Origin: Panopea generosa | Lineage: Eukaryota > Mollusca > Bivalvia > Adapedonta > Hiatellidae | Assembly: GCA_029582155.1 (NCBI GenBank) | Contig: CM055909.1 | Location: forward strand, 17,656,301 to 17,720,300 | DNA length: 64,000 nt | Direction of reading: 5' to 3' | Shown here: positions 5,111 through 48,184 of the stretch, piece by piece | Numbering within the stretch: position 1 is the stretch's first letter | Layout of the letters: the number at the start of each line of letters is the position of its first letter | Made by a program: the position numbers and the translations under genes | Notes under the pieces: generated by a model | The model's input: only the letters and a program-made list of their open reading frames with translations | What the model was told of the DNA's origin: nothing | The model's database searches: none

Positions 5111-5814
5111 AGGGCTTCTAAAATCACCGTTTTTTTCGGTTTTTGGACCGATTTCTACCGTTCAAAACCGGGTTTCGTTTCAAAATTGAATAAAAAAACG
5201 GCCCAGATATTTTCTATCGGACGTTTAAATTACCCCTATAATGCTTTACTAAGCTGTGAAATATGCCTTGCGGCAATAACATTCTATGGTTTTGTCACCC
5301 GCTGTGCAAAAGGAGGTCAATTTTGACTAAGCCATTACAGATATGTAAGGGAGTTCAAGGATGGATTCAGGGCGTGCGCCCCCCCTAAAATTTGGCAAGC
5401 ATAGGTTTTTCTTCTACACATTCACCCTGAACTCAAATAACCATCTTAACGCTTTGTGTTTAAACAAATTAAGCACATATTTGATGTACCTAAAATATGT
5501 ACAAACTACTTCTAGCATGATGCTTGAATATATTCTACTGTCGCCCAGTGTTTGGTCGTTTTTTTAAAGTTTTTTTCCTTGTCGTTAGATCTATATCAAT
5601 TCTGGTAATTTTACGCGAAAAAGTTTGTTATGGCGGCAACATCAACGCGAGCAAAAATTTAAAAATAAGCTGAATAGCTTTTTTTACATGTATATCATCA
5701 TCTGCAGAAAGTCAAACGGAGAAGAAAATGTATGTATATTTGCATGTCATGTCATGACATGTGTAAATGATTTTAAATATACCAGTCTGCTAAAACATGT
5801 ATACAATTAAAATA

Positions 5815-7394
5815 TACTCAGGAAAACTAGAAACGTCTCTGTTTTATAGCCGGTGAAGCTTTGTCTGTGTAGTTGCTACATGTTCAATGTACATGTATTT
5901 TAAACCCTGGCGATGTTCAGAATACGATCGTGTACAGTTTACCCGATACACACGGTTTACATATCGGCCAGTAACCGGAACGGTCATTTGCACGTTTTGC
6001 ACGTGCACGCTATACATGTCATCCATATGTTGATTCAGTTCATGTCGTACCATTCATGCGATAGGGGCTATTCTGAAAATTAAAATTTTTCTTTAATTTT
6101 TCACTGTTTTCGATATGCCACGGCTTTCCGAAAACGAGCGAAATCAGGCAATTGGGATGCTTGCGGTTGGGATGTCCGCCAGGGTAGTCGCGCGTCGGTT
6201 CGGGTGCTGTCGGAAGACGATTGATCGTCTTGATCCCGTTACCAGCAGACTGGGGCTGTTCACGACCGGCAGCGACCTGGTAGGCCTGCTGTAACGACGG
6301 CTAGAGCCGATCGTTTCATTACGTTGACGCACTTACGTCAACGTCAATTGGCAGCCACAGTCACTGCTAGGCAATACGGTGTCTCAGGGCAGATCATTCG
6401 CAACCGGTTGCGTCGTAACGCCCAACCAATCAGGGCACGCCGCCCGTACACCAGTTAGATAATGACCCAACGTCACCGTGCTGCCAGGCTGTTATGGGCG
6501 CGACGTCATCTGATTTGGATAAGGGCTGACTGGAACCAAGTTTTGTTCACCGATGAATCTCGGTTCACAGCAAGTCATGCTGACGGAAGATTACGGGTAT
6601 ACAGGCGTAAAAATGAAAGATTCGCCGATTGTTGCATTGTTGAGAAGAACAGGTTTGGGGGAGGGAGCGTAATGGTCTGGGGTGGGATCATGGGAAACCG
6701 GAAGACAGATTTGGTTGTTGTACAGGGCAACATTAATGCACAGCGTAATGTTGCAGACGTGCTAAATGCATATGCCTTACTATTTATTCGTCAGCATGGT
6801 CCTGGTGTAACATTGATGCAGGACAATGCCCGCCCTCATGTAGCCAGGGTCACCACTCAATTCTTGCAGCAAAACAATGTCAACGTCATGCCATTGCCCG
6901 CGGTTTCCCCCAATTCTCAACCCCATTGAGCACATATGGTATCAGCTGGGCCGCAAAGCACGAGCTAACCATCAGATTGACAATGTTCGCGATCTTACAC
7001 GGGCGTTACAACAGGAATGGAGGAATTTGCCCAACGCACTGGTATTGCGTTACGTTACGTCGATGCGGCGTAGGATCATTGCATGCATTCATGCCAATGG
7101 TGGCCACACTCGGTACTAACGAGATTTACTGGATGTGCCACATTTCTTATTGAAATTCCATCTCTAAACATTCAATAACACCTTTCTGAGTTTTTGGGAT
7201 TTTTGATTTTGACCCCTACCTCTCTTGACCGGTTATCTCTCGAAAAGTTAACAAGATAGCCAGATGTTATTAATTGGTTTTGATACAGAAATGAATGAAC
7301 TTGTTTTTTTTATTTTGATTCATAAATGTAACCCTTTTGGTTTTCGATAAATCTTTCCTGAAATATGGAGGGACGTTTCTATTTTTGCTGAGTA
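5815..7394 (+). mobile_element. Tc1/mariner-like transposon nested in element A
   Basis: It starts TACTCAGGAAAACTAGAAAC and ends, on the opposite strand, TACTCAGCAAAAATAGAAAC, with TA duplicated on both sides (5,813-5,814 and 7,395-7,396). At 1,580 bp it has the size of a complete Tc1-like element and carries one transposase pseudogene. Comparison with element B shows the exact empty site: AATTAAAA followed directly by the ATCTACAC sequence. Confidence 0.9.
6115..7119 (+). pseudogene. Tc1-like DD34E transposase, broken
   Basis: This encoded the cut-and-paste transposase of the surrounding Tc1-like element. The N-terminal helix-turn-helix region starts at the ATG at 6,115 (MPRLSENERNQAIGML). 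A frameshift near 6,230 moves the reading to a second frame, where a QRPGRPAVTT-type hinge follows. A TAG at about 6,457 interrupts just after the RARRPY motif. The catalytic core then reads FTDESRF (first Asp), GGGSVMVWGG and LMQDNARPH (second Asp). An extra base near 6,910 shifts the frame just before LNPIEHIWY, which holds the catalytic Glu, 34 residues after the second Asp. The C terminus ends GGHTRY, usual for this Tc1 group. All three catalytic residues survive, but two frameshifts and a stop make it non-functional. Confidence 0.92.
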
Positions 7395-7785
7395 TATCTA
7401 CACTGCGTAGACCAAACTTTCAAAAGCACCGAGACAGAAACAACTAAACTGGTAGACAAACTGAGGCAAACAAATAATCAATAAAACACTGAAATCTATG
7501 TTAAACTTTCATCTATTTTCATTCAATGTTATATTAAAAAAAAAAAATTATCCAGAAAAACCAATATGCCATCGGCCTGCTCATAACAAGATAGTGATGT
7601 GCTATGATAATTCAAGGTATACGTGTTACTGTGTTTATCTTTATTCAAAAGAATTAAGTTATAAATGTATATACATTCACTTAAGTATAATTTGCCGCCC
7701 TATACCCCCGAACCCTAACATCAATTCCTGGATACGCACATGGGCGCTCCCTTTAAACTGAAATCCTTGATCCGCCCCTGGAGTT

Positions 7786-12274: not shown

Positions 12275-12575
12275 CCGCAGCGGTGTTACATGGGTAGAGC
12301 GTCCGCCTCGCGTGCGGAAGGTCGTGGGTTCGACCAACGGCCAGGTCAAACCAAAGACTTTTATTTAAAGCTTCTTAACATGGCGCCCAACATTTAGAGG
12401 ATTGTTTTAGTGGTCGGCCCGGTGTCAGTACAATGTGACTGGGTGAGGTATCATACTAGGTGCCTGCGACATGATACTCTAGTATTGCAGCGTTTAGAAA
12501 TACTGTGTCAAGTAGAACACGTCGCGATATAGCTGAAGCAATGTTGAACGCTAAATACAATACAAACAAAAACAT
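12275..12575 (+). mobile_element. tRNA-Ala-like SINE (family A)
   Basis: Head: GTAGAGCGTCCGCCTCGCGTGCGG then GGTCGTGGGTTCGACC. The body carries GGTCGGCCCGGTGTCAGTA, a TGACTGGGTGAGGTATCATAC block and GTCGCGATATAGCTGAA, and the tail is GAACGCTAAATACAATACAAAC. The same order is seen at 26,656, 47,863 and, on the minus strand, 35,256 and 47,539. The central block is long and conserved, as in SINE superfamilies with a shared central domain; I cannot say which one. Confidence 0.85.
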
Positions 12576-13140
12576 AGTACACTTTTATAAAACAAGTTAT
12601 CACAGACTTAACAGTCGTTAATTAATAGACACATACTGTTTAAAACACAACTAACGGGTTATTCTGAGTAAATATTCCTGTTATTGTATCAATGTCAATG
12701 TTGTGTATATTTAAATGATTTTGATTACTTACCTAAAACGATAATTATCCGTTTAAACATGTTAAAATAATAACATTTGCGAAGTGCGTTGATTCATAAA
12801 AGTTTGCAATCGTACATACAAGGCCAAATCCGTCATCCTTCGGTATTAGACCTCGTAGGTAGTCCAAGGATCCACCAAATTGGAAATGTAATTAGGTTTA
12901 TTCCTGCAGATAACGCAAAAAGGATCTAGTTTGTGTCTTATACTCGTTGTGTATGCAGTGTTGCCCTAAGTACATCACCGTGACACATTTGAAAATGATA
13001 AATATGTGTAAAAAAGGTGTTTTTTTTATTTAAGGGGCATAAAATGTTAAAGATATAAAGATATGTGTAAATATATCAATACATATATGCAAAATTATTA
13101 TTTTTTTATATTTTATTGGAACGTTTTTGTTTTTTTTCGG
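12576..13140. other. Spacer, no gene seen
   Basis: AT-rich single-copy-looking sequence. No frame, RNA or repeat structure supported. Confidence 0.4.
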
Positions 13141-26310: not shown

Positions 26311-26655
26311 ACATAGACTGACTAACTGAAGACATCATGTTTTGTCTGTTAATTACGTCACATAATACAGATATGTCAACACAACTGTTACGATGTCACG
26401 ATCTGTAACGAAAACTACTTGTCCACGAATCATTATTGTGTAAGAGGCAATACTTCCAAGACCGCGCATCTACAATAACTGATTAAATAGTACACCTATC
26501 GTAGCGGGTAAAATAACAAGTGTATCAGCCTTTATATAAGTATAATTGTACTAAGACCCTGGACAACAACATGTCGGCTGGCGTCCATCAGCAGGAGCCA
26601 TGTTGTTCGGATGGCAGATTCGAAACTGTTATTTATCAATTTCAATCAATAAACA

Positions 26656-26967
26656 CCACGGCGTGGTCTAGTGGTAGAGCGTCCGCCTCGCATGCGGAAG
26701 GTCGTGGGTTCAATCCCCGGCCGGGTCATACCAAAGACTTTAAAAATAATACTAGAAGCTTCCTCGCTTGACGCATAGCATTTAGAGGTAAGTTCTAGGT
26801 CTAGTCGGCCCGGTGTCAGTATAATGTGCCTGGGTGGGGTATCATACCATGTGTCTGCGGCATGATACTCCAGTGTGACAGCGATTAGAATACTGTCTCA
26901 AGTAGACACCGTCGCGATATGACTAAAAAAATTGTTGAAAGCGACGCTAAACACCATACAACAACAA
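26656..26967 (+). mobile_element. tRNA-Ala(CGC)-like SINE (family A)
   Basis: Well-preserved copy: GGTCTAGTGGTAGAGCGTCC, anticodon stem-loop TCCGC-CTCGCAT-GCGGA with CGC in the anticodon position, B box GTGGGTTCAATCCCC. The full body and a CCATACAACAAC tail follow. The acceptor stem does not pair, so the tRNA is not functional. Imperfect flanking repeat TTCAATCAATAA / TTCATTCAATAA (26,641 and 26,969). Confidence 0.88.
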
Positions 26968-27970
26968 ATTCATTCAATAAGTATACATGAATTGTATATA
27001 CATATATATTGTTAAATCATAAAACACATCGTGTATGTAACGTAATAATGCGTATTACCGTAACATTTCTTCATATACTTATCGAACTACTTTTTGAAGT
27101 ATTGAAAGAGTAAGTTATTTGGTTTAGCCAAACGTGCACTTTATTCGTCAAGGAACTAACTCCTCCAGTTCATTTTTTGGTGCATAAACCGGAAATACAA
27201 AAAATAAATAAGCATCATTTGTAATTTAACGGATGCGTTTACAATGGCGTTCCGGTGATAAATCCCCTATAAAGTTGGTGATAAAAGCATTTATATGTTA
27301 ACACGATGTTTAATGTAAAATAATTGATCTGACGCGTAAGTATGGCTAAATTTCGATTTCAATATTGCCATGAATATAAATATATTTCAAATGCTTTTTG
27401 ATGACACGTAAAAATAGTTATAATCTGAATGATAGGCAGCCTTCCGCCTTTATAATATCATGTATATATTATTTTATAAGATGAAATAACCATCTGACAT
27501 CGGCTAAAATTTGCTCGAGGACTTGCGGTTGTCCATTTGATATTGACGGTTGAAAATACCGATAAGCCTTTATGTTTGTTTGAATATTTATATAAACGAG
27601 GGCTAGTATAGATCAGCTAACCTATTCGTGTGTGTACATGTGCGTGCGTGCATGCGAATTTGTGTGAGACCGTTTAACAATACTAGACATACATTGTCTA
27701 TGGACGTGTAATCATAATCTAAACATTTACATGTAAGATTATACACGTATCAGGCGTATGTAACTTATGACAAATAAACTTGTACATACTATTAGACTAA
27801 GTATATATTGTCCAAATATACTTTAAATAGAAAAAAGAAAAACAAAATATTTCGGCCGCATATAAGATAAAATGTTTTGCACTGTTTGTTGAAGTCCTTA
27901 ATACACAAAGCAGCTGCAGCTGACTCGACATAGAGCATTTTGTTTGTTCCTTTTCCGTGAATATGGTGTA
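26968..27970. other. AT-rich spacer, no gene seen
   Basis: A short GTGTGTACATGTGCGTGCGTG stretch near 27,630 is the only structure noted. The frame at 27,792-28,085 (minus) overlaps the MITE and is not supported. Confidence 0.4.
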
Positions 27971-30262: not shown

Positions 30263-30792
30263 AATGTATATATAATAATAATGGCTCCTAACTTTATTCC
30301 CCTTTACAAAATATAAATGACAAATATAAAGTACATATACTAATATCATATTTGCATGATGTAGACATATCTCTAGAATGGGTATCGTGGTAGGGAATGG
30401 CAAAAGATGCCATTGACAAAACAATGGCAGTAAATGTAATGGGTGTCATTAACATTACTTAAATAGTTGGAAAGAACATAATTGCAGAAGGAAATGGTGG
30501 GTCAAGTGTCAATGTTTCAAGCATTTCTGGAATAAAAGCAATGCGTGATTGTCTAGATTATACCGTATCGAAAGCCGTCCTAGATATGGTGACGAAGCAG
30601 TTCGCCCTGAGCTTGGGCCACACCAGATACGCGCCAACTCCGTGAATCCAACTTTGTTTCTGACGGATATTACTCGCAATCGAGGTTGGGCCGGCAAGAA
30701 ACTGAAATCACAAACGGCGTTTGGAAGGTTTGCAGAATCGGAAGAGGTAGTTATACCCATATTATACTTACTACGTGATTGTTCATTCATGG

Positions 30793-31715
30793 CAAGGGCG
30801 GATTCACCCTGCGCCCCCACCCCCCTACAATTTGGCAAGCATGGGTTTTTCTTCTACACATTTACCCTGAACTCAAGTAACCATCTCAATGATTAAGCAC
30901 GTATTTGATGTACATTAAATATGTACAAACTTACTACTTGAGTATAGTCTACTGTCGCCCAGTGTTTGGTCGTTTTTTTTAGTTTTTTTTCCTTGTCGTT
31001 AAATCTTTATCGTTTCGGATAATTTTACGCGAAAAAGTTTGTTTTTGCGGCACTATCAACGCGGGAAAAAACTAAAAAAAAAATGAATAGCTTTTTAACA
31101 TGTAGATCATCATTTGCAGAAAGTCAAACGCAGAAGAAAATGTATGTATATTTGCATGTGTAAATGATTTTAAATGCTAAAACAGGTATACAATTAAAAT
31201 TAAATCTACACTACGTAGACAAAAATTTCAAAAGCACCGAGACAGAGACAACCAAACTGATGGACAAACTGAGGCAAACAAATAATCAATACAATACTGA
31301 AATCTATGTTTCATCTATTTTCATTCAATGTTATATTAAAAAAAAAAAGATTTAGCCAGAAAAACAATATGCCATCGGCCTGTTCCTGACAAGATAGTGA
31401 TGTGCTATAATTGTGACTAAGACTTACTGTAAGTGGTGCTGTAGCGTAATAGGCAAGGCGTGCGCTTGTCAATCTAGAGTTCTAACGTTCAACCCTGCCT
31501 TGCGACATTTTTTTATTTTGTAAATAAAAATGTTTATAAAAAAAATCAAGGTATACGTGTTATTATGATTATTTTTATTAAAAAAAATTAAGTTATAAAT
31601 ATGTATATGTATATACATTCACATAAGTACATTTGCCGCCACCCCACCCCTAACATCAATTCCTGGACCCGCACCTGCGCGCCCCAACTAAACTGAAATC
31701 CTGGATCCGCCCCTG
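30793..31715 (+). mobile_element. hAT-like non-autonomous DNA transposon (element B) inside the SDR pseudogene
   Basis: 923 bp, starting CAAGGGCGGATTCACCCTGC and ending, on the opposite strand, CAGGGGCGGATCCAGGATTT. Flanked by the 5-bp repeat CATGG at 30,788-30,792 and 31,716-31,720; removing the element and one CATGG restores the dehydrogenase frame F-M-V-T-G. It is co-linear with element A at 5,356-7,780 but lacks the nested Tc1 and carries an extra tRNA-like insertion at about 31,408-31,546. No transposase. Class inferred from target duplication and ends. Confidence 0.9.
31408..31546 (+). mobile_element. tRNA-derived insertion nested in element B
   Basis: This block is absent from element A, where GATGTGCTAT runs almost directly into CAAGGTATACGTGTT. 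It holds a tRNA-like GGTGCTGTAGCGTAATAGGC and CTAACGTTCAACCCTGCC followed by an AT tail, which fits a short SINE. It has no match to families A-E. Confidence 0.55.
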
Positions 31716-31776
31716 CATGGTGACGGGAACAATAAATCATATCGATGGTGGACTACTCTCTAATATCTCTGTCTAA

Positions 31777-32479: not shown

Positions 32480-34345
32480 TACTGTTTGAGGGTGTGTGGT
32501 GACGTGCCGCACGTTCACACTACTTGTTATATTACACTATGTGTGGGGGCGTGTCTTACTTTCGTGCTGTTTGTTTTATTACACTATGTGTTGTGGCGTG
32601 TCTTATATTCGTACTACATGTTATATTACACGGCCTGTGGTGACGTGTCTTACTTTCGTACTACATGTTCTATTTCACGGCGTGTGGTGCCGTGCCTTAC
32701 TTTCGTACTACATGTTCTATTTCACGGCGTGTGGTGCCGTGCCTGACTTTCGTTCTACATGTTATATTACACGGCGTGCGGTGACGTGCCTTACTTTCGT
32801 ACTACATGTTATATTACACGGCGTGTGGTGCCGTGCCTTACTTTTTAGTACTACATGTTCTATTTCACGGCGTGTGGTGCCGTGCCTTACTTTCGTTCTA
32901 CATGTTATATTACACGGCGTGTGGTGCCGTGCCTTACTGTCGTACTAAATGTTCTATTTCACGGCGTGTGGTGCCGTGCCTGACTTTCGTTCTAGATGTT
33001 CTATTACACGACGTGTGGTGACGTGCCTTACTTTCGTACTGTTTGTTTTATTACACTATGTGTGGTGACGAGTCTTACTTTCGTACTACATGTTATATTA
33101 CATGGCGTGTGGTGCCGTGCCTTACTTTCGTACTGTTTGTTATATTACACGGCGTGTGGTGACGTGTCTTACTTTCGTACTACATGTTATATTACACGGC
33201 GTGTGGTGCCGTGCCTTACTTTCGTACTACATGTTATATTACACGGCGTGTGGCGACGTGTCTAACTTTCGTACTACATGTTATATTACACGGCGTGTGG
33301 CGACGTGTCTAACTTTCGAACTACATGTTCTATATCACGGCGTGTGGTGCCGTGCCTTATTTTCGTACTACATGTTATATTACACGGCGTGTGGCGACGT
33401 GTCTAACTTCGTACAACATGTTATATTACACAGCGTGTGGCGACGTGTCTAACTTTCGTACTACATGTTCAATATCACGGCGTGTGGTGCCGTGCCTTAC
33501 TTTCGTTCTAGATATTCTATTACACGGCGTGTGGTGACGTGTCTTACTTTCGTACTACATGTTCTATTACACGGCGTGTGGTGACGTGCCTTACTTTCGT
33601 ACTGTTTGTTTTATTACACTATGTGTGGTGACGTTCTTATTTTTGTACAACATGTTCTATTACACGGCGTGGTGTGACGTGTCTTACTTTCGTATTGTTT
33701 GTTTTATTACACTATGTGTGGTGACGTTCTTATTTTTGTACAACATGTTCTATTACACGGCGTGGTGTGACGTGTCTTACTTTCGTATTGTTTGTTTTAT
33801 TACACTATGTGTGGTGACGAGTCTTACTTTCGTACTACATGTTCTATTTCACGGCCTGTGGTGACGTTTCTTACTTTCTTACTACATGTTATATTACACG
33901 GCGTGGTGTGACGTGCCTTACTTTCGTTCTACATGTTATATTACACGGCGTGTGGTGACGAGTCTTACTTTCGTACTACATGTTATATTACACGGCGTGT
34001 GGTGACGTGTCTTACTTTCGTACTACATGTTATATTACACGGCGTGTTGTGACGTGACTTACTTTCGTATTACATGTTATATTACACGGCGTGTGGTGAC
34101 GTGTCTTACTTTCGTACTACATGTTATATTACACTGCGTGTGGTGACGAGCCTCACTTTCGTACTACCTGTTATATTACACAGCGTGTGGTGACGTGACT
34201 TACTTTCGTACTACATGTTATATTACACGGCGTGTGGTGACGTGCCTTACTTTCGTATTACATGTTCTATTATAGGGTTAGTGATGACGTGTCTAACATT
34301 CGTACTGCTTGTGACACTGTGTGTGGTGATGTGTCTTATGTTCGT
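32480..34345. repeat. 47-bp minisatellite, about 39 copies
   Basis: Unit CTTACTTTCGTACTACATGT then TATATTACACGGCGTGTGGT then GACGTGT. Variants (GACG/GCCG, TATATTAC/TCTATTTC, GTTTGTTTTATTACACTATG) recur in blocks, which points to local block duplications; for example, the pattern at 33,601-33,700 repeats at 33,691-33,790. Both edges decay, and the right edge fades out to about 34,600. Since 47 is not a multiple of three, the open frames rotate through the unit and are not genes. Confidence 0.96.
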
Positions 34346-36012: not shown

Positions 36013-36249
36013 GTTAATATCTGTTGTTTCTCTGCTATGTGCTGCTTGTTTGTCACACACGTGTCTTGAGTATGCTTATAGTCTGTTTATGCTTGAGATT
36101 GATTGGGTGCATTTACTATGTCATTGAATCGCACGTGTATTCTCCACAAGATTGATTCACTACATTCTAGGCCATGTACACAGGCTGACTTCGTATACAG
36201 GTTAGTTTTAACAAACACGTTACCATGCCAACCAACTTTACACGATCTG

Positions 36250-36609
36250 TTAGACAGATATGTTAGACAGTAGTCCACCCTCGATAGGATTCATTATTCC
36301 CGTCACCATGGAAGAAAACTCACTAAGTAGATACAGAAGAAGTATGTTCTAGAGATATGCCAGCGTTTTTTACTCATCCGTCCAATAGACAGAGAAGTTC
36401 AACTTCTTTTCTTGTCGGCTATGTCCACCTGCATTGTATGCATCCCAGAACATTCATGGACGAGTGTATCTAAATGCTCCTTCTGTCTGCTGAGAGCGTA
36501 AACTTTCCCTCCTGCAGCGACGATCGCCTTAGAAAGTGCTCGTCCTAACCCCCATGCCTGCACCAGTTACCAATATCTTCTTTCCGGTAAAAGTAAAAGC
36601 CATATCCAT
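36250..36609 (-). pseudogene. Second DCXR-like SDR pseudogene, internally deleted
   Basis: On the minus strand from 36,609 the frame reads MDMAFTFTGKKILVTGAGMG, the nucleotide-binding T-G-x-x-x-G-x-G start typical of SDRs. A frameshift follows and the reading resumes as ALSKAIVAAGGKVYALSRQ and then HTMQVDIADKK. The reading breaks again, and a trace of the N-N-A-G motif survives as KNAGISLE near 36,360. It then jumps straight to LLSEFSSMVTGIMNPIEGGLLSNISV and TAA at 36,250-36,252. Roughly 130 codons, including the catalytic Tyr and Lys, are missing. The ends agree closely with the copy at 30,367-31,776. Confidence 0.85.
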
Positions 36610-41659: not shown

Positions 41660-42245
41660 AACATGATTTAAGATAAAAACATTTGCTCTAAATACTTGAT
41701 AAGGACTTTATTTTATAATTATATTACGCTGTTAACCTGTTTATGTTAATAATAATCCAAAATGGTCACTCTCACACTCTACTTTAAACAACTGAATTCT
41801 TTATTTGTTGTTTCCATCTTAAATGTTTATTACACACATGTCTTGGGTCTGTTTTATGTATACTAATAATCTGTTTATATTTAAGTCGAAGAAAAAATAT
41901 AGTGTTCTGTTCTGTTCGGCTCGTTTCTGTTCTGTATAATCCCAACCTAAGATCACTTAGACACATAAATTTTGTCACGTGTTATTTCCCACAAAACTGA
42001 TTAACTATAATTCCAGGTCATATAAATAGAATGACTCCGTATACAGGTTGTTTACTTTATTTACACGTTACCAAGACAACCAACTTTTCCCCTCCTGCAG
42101 CTCGCCCTTATCCCCTACCAGCGCCAGTTACCAATATCTTCTTTCCGGAAAAAGTAAAAGCCATATCAAAATGATAAATAAAGAAATTGAATTTAAATTA
42201 AATCACGTAAATGTTTCAGTATGTGCAAGATCTTTATGTTATAAA
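41660..42245. repeat. Duplicated segment, copy 2 (partner at 35,735-36,640)
   Basis: Shares ordered blocks with the partner as described there, including the AT-rich leader ahead of the SDR start. Lacks the family B SINE and most of the SDR remnant. Confidence 0.7.
42083..42164 (-). pseudogene. Third DCXR-like SDR pseudogene, N-terminal stub
   Basis: From the ATG at 42,164 (minus) it reads MAFTFSGKKILVTGAGRG, then a one-base loss turns the expected I-G into a stop. After GCAGGAGGGGAAA (the A-A-G-G-K region) it runs directly into the sequence that lies after the stop codon in the 36-kb copy. So nearly the whole gene is deleted and only the start of the Rossmann fold survives. Confidence 0.8.
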
Positions 42246-47862: not shown

Positions 47863-48184
47863 GACCGCGGCGTGGTCTAGTGGTAGAGCGTACGCCTCGC
47901 ATGCGGAAGGTCGTGGGTTCGATCCCCGGCCGGGTCATACCAAAGACTTTGAAAATGGTACTAGAAGCTTCCTCGCTTGACGCTCAGCTTTTAAAGGAGA
48001 GTTCTAGGTCTGGTCGGCCCGGTGTCAGTATAATGTGACTGGGTGGGGTATCATACCACGTGTCTGCGGCATGATATTCCAGTGTAACAGTGCTCAGAAT
48101 ACTGTCTCAAGTAGACACCGTCGCGATATGACTGAAAAGTTGTTGAAAGCGATGCTAAACACCATACAACAACAACAACAACAA
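47863..48184 (+). mobile_element. tRNA-Ala(CGC)-like SINE (family A) with 14-bp target duplication
   Basis: The best-preserved copy: GGTCTAGTGGTAGAGCGTAC, CTCGCATGCGG, GTGGGTTCGATCCCCGG, the full body, and a (CAA)n tail. The direct repeat ACTGTTAACTGTGA flanks it exactly (47,849-47,862 and 48,184-48,197), with no mismatch, so the insertion is relatively young. It lies head-to-head with the minus-strand copy at 47,539. Confidence 0.93.

Follow-up and report, generated by a model that had tools for sequence, protein, structure and literature searches.

The window analysed here is a 64,000-nucleotide stretch of the Panopea generosa genome (C16:17656301-17720300), in which a 5′-truncated, DCXR-like SDR pseudogene is interrupted by a non-autonomous DNA transposon, element B. 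The same window contains two further damaged SDR copies, c2 and c3, and element A, its other copy of the transposon family (Table 1).

Table 1. Coordinates of the SDR copies, transposon copies and associated features within the window
Feature	Position	Strand	Basis
SDR (DCXR-like) pseudogene, 5′-truncated, from ~codon 86 (L010 numbering) to the insertion site	30366..30787	+	profile/structure matches, paralogue alignment
Target site duplication CATGG, left	30788..30792	+	sequence reading
Element B, non-autonomous DNA transposon; imperfect terminal inverted repeats CAAGGGCGGATTCACC / CAGGGGCGGATCCAGG, 12/16 matching	30793..31715	+	sequence, family comparison
Element segment, tRNA-derived-like by eye (A/B box)	31412..31542	+	by eye; family alignment
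Target site duplication CATGG, right	31716..31720	+	sequence reading
SDR C terminus and stop codon	31721..31776	+	translation; similarity to copy c2
Element A, same family as element B; GAGTT flanks (5351-5355, 7781-7785); split by a Tc1/mariner-like element	5356..7780	+	sequence, profile match
SDR copy c2, pseudogene: N-terminal part and ~last 27 codons, middle absent; uninterrupted CATGG site	36249..36606	-	tblastn, alignment
SDR copy c3, remnant: ~first 25 codons, then 3′ flank	42088..42170	-	DNA alignment only, boundaries approximate

When the interrupted copy is read through its lesions and joined across the insert, it matches human L-xylulose reductase 1pr9 (5.5e-26) and mouse carbonyl reductase 1cyd (1.9e-23). 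The likeness to these DCXR proteins consists of an alignment over human residues 98-241 and retention of the YxxxK motif, which we take to be catalytic in SDR, whereas the window copy differs from them by its 5′ truncation, a stop, a frame change and the transposon insertion, and the P. generosa paralogues compared here are single-exon and multi-copy. The left flank encodes SDR sequence in two frames, with a premature TAA at 30460-30462 (codon 117) and a one-base loss near 30610; its first piece alone lies above the Pfam SDR cut-offs and its second piece alone scores 1.9e-4, below the cut-off, while the right flank is matched to c2 (tblastn E 1.7e-4, as a portion of the joined query). The preliminary description had called for the flanks to be compared with SDR proteins, and similarity is present on both sides of the insert. 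A lesion absent from that description is the loss of approximately the first 85 codons, the homology beginning near 30366, which corresponds to approximately codon 86 in the 249-codon paralogue L010; a 12-nt in-frame gap relative to the nearest paralogues was also detected.

Element B is 923 bp in length and is directly abutted at each end by CATGG, as had been noted previously; the chance agreement of two random 5-mers from the window is 0.002. The right flank translates to MVTGTINHIDGGLLSNISV followed by a stop codon at 31774-31776, and when the flanks are joined with CATGG counted once the frame is unbroken (...LLRDCSF-M-VTGTINHIDGGLLSNISV-stop), so that the in-frame restoration of a DCXR-like C terminus, on which the earlier reading depended, is upheld.

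A query joining the left SDR flank to the opening 48 bases of the element was used to search the genome (1.47 Gb, 39 contigs) and returned 22 matches, 16 on contig C17 (14.41-15.18 Mb), three on C2 and single matches on C14, on C16 (the window) and on C3, where only the element is covered. The SDR paralogue family is mostly clustered on C17. Fifteen distinct paralogous loci were read (the C14 SDR match lies outside this set, and L026-L028 were taken together with L021, whose locus they show in overlapping views), and a full-length single-exon open frame was found in at least nine of them, a lower bound since L012 was not measured owing to a motif filter. The insertion site is uninterrupted in 14 of the 15 loci, 11 of which read exactly CATGG, and the fifteenth, L020, runs past the site and within a few bases turns into other sequence; the site is likewise uninterrupted in c2 and in its counterpart on C2. 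These uninterrupted sites demonstrate that the SDR sequence is older than the insertion, as the preliminary description had held, and that no intron of the family accounts for the insert. None of the 14 aligned paralogues (L021 being outside this alignment) has the TAA or the one-base loss, suggesting that both most likely arose in the lineage of this SDR copy itself.

Element B starts with CAAGGGCGGATTCACC and ends with CCTGGATCCGCCCCTG, thus beginning with CA and finishing with TG, and the common ends of its family are the short terminal inverted repeats CAAGGGCGGATTCAGG / CAGGGGCGGATCCAGG. The 20-base terminus CAGGGGCGGATCCAGGATTT has 277 exact copies in the genome and its reversed control none. 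Duplication length was assessed in element A and in 38 fetched loci, which represent 35 distinct places; in ten of the 38 the two ends were not both recognisable, and the 29 sets with both ends were reduced to ten separate events. Fifteen of the 29 have the same flanking sequence as element A (on the left TGTAAGGGAGTT, on the right mostly GAGTTTTT); they represent a single insertion that was amplified within another repeat, and were counted once. At a length of 5 bp the duplication is exact in three of the ten events and has at most one mismatch in seven, where the chance of such agreement is 0.024 per event; the remaining three have two or three mismatches in the presumed duplication. No event reaches this level at lengths of 6, 7 or 8, and shifting the ends yields no more than 5. 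Five base pairs is thus the only supported duplication length of the family, and element A has its own 5-bp duplication, GAGTT. Element A also lies within a larger dispersed repeat, and its flanks recur in 14 fetched copies; the Tc1/mariner-like element that splits it has a TA target and a DDE_3 match.

Elements of the hAT type usually have short imperfect terminal inverted repeats of the form CA..TG and occur in many dispersed copies. The likeliest type for the element family is hAT5-like, an assignment that can be made with moderate confidence. According to the passage of PMC12730594 that cites Kapitonov and Jurka (2007), hAT families with 5-bp duplications constitute hAT5. The 5-bp target duplications are common to that group and to the present family, which has short terminal inverted repeats (12/16 in element B) but within the loci compared is tied to no hAT transposase. 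Domains for hAT dimerisation are common in the genome (150 scored of 662 first-look candidates); the closest terminus to a hAT hit lies 94 kb away, among 100 termini listed of the 277 and 51 hits on C1-C6, and the one hAT locus that was read (2801 bases) contained no family terminus. A possible but less probable placement is in a CMCT-type superfamily (Transib/Chapaev-like) rather than hAT, as CMCT elements are described in a passage of the same source as having mostly CA..TG termini and duplicating 2-5 bp (PMC12730594). The combination of CA..TG termini and 5-bp duplications fits CMCT and hAT5 alike and so does not discriminate between them, whereas the terminus CAGGGGCGGATCC appears unlike the Transib heptamer, which would argue against CMCT. 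Text searches of the literature for the terminus CAGGGGCGGATCC, and for nonautonomous hAT elements with 5-bp target site duplications and terminal inverted repeats, gave no match.

The absence from element A of the tRNA-like segment of element B had suggested a private 131-bp SINE insertion in the latter. All 38 fetched loci match the segment at least partly, however, which makes it a feature of the family that element A has lost. Neither ARAGORN nor Rfam called a tRNA on the segment, and at gathering scores Rfam had no hit anywhere in the window. It is conceivable, although very doubtful, that the family is a chimera in which a tRNA-derived and possibly Pol III-promoted segment is a standing part of a cut-and-paste transposon, a reading rated low because the tRNA likeness was judged by eye only; if it were true, the spread of a DNA transposon would also disperse a SINE-like promoter.

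A second occupied copy, L002, is found on C2, where the same element stands between two CATGG motifs, its left terminus being altered at the first base. Window positions 26461-47522 are collinear, in pieces and with gaps, to C2:79,864,399-79,883,330, most pieces having 86-96% identity, and the resulting block of approximately 21 kb contains three SDR copies on each contig. All three window copies are broken and one C2 copy is open, namely L017, a full-length open frame that is the counterpart of the nearly lost c3. Two flanking stretches show 6.4% and 7.0% substitutions between C16 and C2, and the sequence to the right of the element 3.4%. The occupied copies are sisters (100/99; stem 0.11, tips 0.026 and 0.029) in a tree of 15 rows, comprising 13 paralogues and the two occupied copies with L020 and c2 left out, in which the C2 row fills 29% of the columns and six of the 12 inner branches are poorly supported. 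Since an occupied copy is present on both contigs, the comparison places the insertion before the C16/C2 block duplication. The earlier proposal of a precise insertion site with a 5-bp duplication has also proved correct: transposon insertion inside the SDR copy is confirmed, both site and duplication being accompanied by empty paralogous sites, the second occupied copy and 5-bp duplications across the family.

The other damage to the SDR copy can be ordered in part relative to the same duplication. The left neighbour of the truncated copy is common to C16 and C2, from which we infer that the block duplication came after the 5′ truncation. The stretch with the TAA and the one-base loss (approximately window 30318-30696) is missing from the C2 sister. 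In the tail that the two share, C16 and C2 have seven derived changes in common, with three private to C16 and three to C2, so that the decay may in large part be older than the duplication, although this does not place the TAA and the one-base loss. On the c1 branch, from codon index 100 on, 16 nonsynonymous and nine synonymous derived changes were counted where neutrality predicts 2.5-3.2 to 1, a difference that carries no decisive weight.

The origin of the SDR copy itself could alternatively be sought in a processed retrocopy, 5′-truncated by incomplete reverse transcription rather than duplicated at the DNA level. The copy is indeed 5′-truncated and intronless, and the homology of c2 and c3 stops by eye approximately 25-30 bases beyond an AATAAA; however, c2 and c3 have sequence in common on the 5′ as well as the 3′ side of the gene, a duplication of approximately 21 kb is evident, and neither a poly(A) tail nor a retrocopy target duplication was noticed by eye. 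An intronless copy of an intron-bearing parent is not what is found here either, as the paralogues are single-exon (at least nine of 15 open and full-length), and missing introns are consequently no mark of retrocopy. Retrocopy is thus an improbable origin, and duplication at the DNA level is preferred. Finally, that CATGG is repeated by chance around a 923-bp intron, or a spacer of another kind, belonging to the SDR gene, as might be imagined from an insert that splits coding sequence and leaves an in-frame join when left out, has virtually no likelihood, given that 14 of 15 paralogous loci cross the site without it, that its ends are those of a dispersed repeat family and are CA..TG rather than GT..AG, and that other insertions of the family have other 5-bp duplications.

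Insertion of the transposon into the SDR copy, followed by block duplication to C16 and C2, is very highly probable as the whole explanation. It is proposed that an SDR copy of the single-exon family mostly clustered on C17, a copy that would have been 5′-truncated by the time of the later duplication at the latest, was entered at codons 230-232 by a non-autonomous cut-and-paste transposon, presumably mobilised in trans by a hAT5-like transposase. The transposase would have made a staggered cut of 5 bp at CATGG, with gap repair doubling those five bases, and the occupied locus and its neighbours (approximately 21 kb with three SDR copies) would then have come to lie on both C16 and C2 by a duplication whose direction between the two we infer. 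A transposon nested in a pseudogene inside a segmental duplication is a known kind of arrangement, and the present case, in which the insertion is older than the duplication and common to both copies, shows no categorical difference from it. It is an ordinary genome event that is unusually well documented and leaves general ideas unchanged, yet a textbook-clean one in that the empty site, the occupied duplicate and the family duplication length are all readable in one genome, and the insertion offers a means of dating, in relative terms, the C16/C2 block duplication and the multi-copy SDR family.

Several minor observations concern the surrounding sequence. Between C16 and C2 the divergence of the element itself (10.5%) exceeds that of its flanks (3.4-7.0%), for which mutation bias, gene conversion or the alignment itself may be responsible. 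By eye, c2 and its counterpart on C2 have the same internal deletion, which suggests that this deletion also predates the block duplication. The tail of L020 on C17 resembles, by eye, the complement of a 47-bp satellite (32494-34306) that adjoins the window SDR copy. A repeat family of approximately 300 bp is represented at 12277-12576, 26655-26968 and 47864-48177; one of its copies opens with an ARAGORN tRNA-Ala call (26656-26727), and the family is probably a tRNA-derived SINE.
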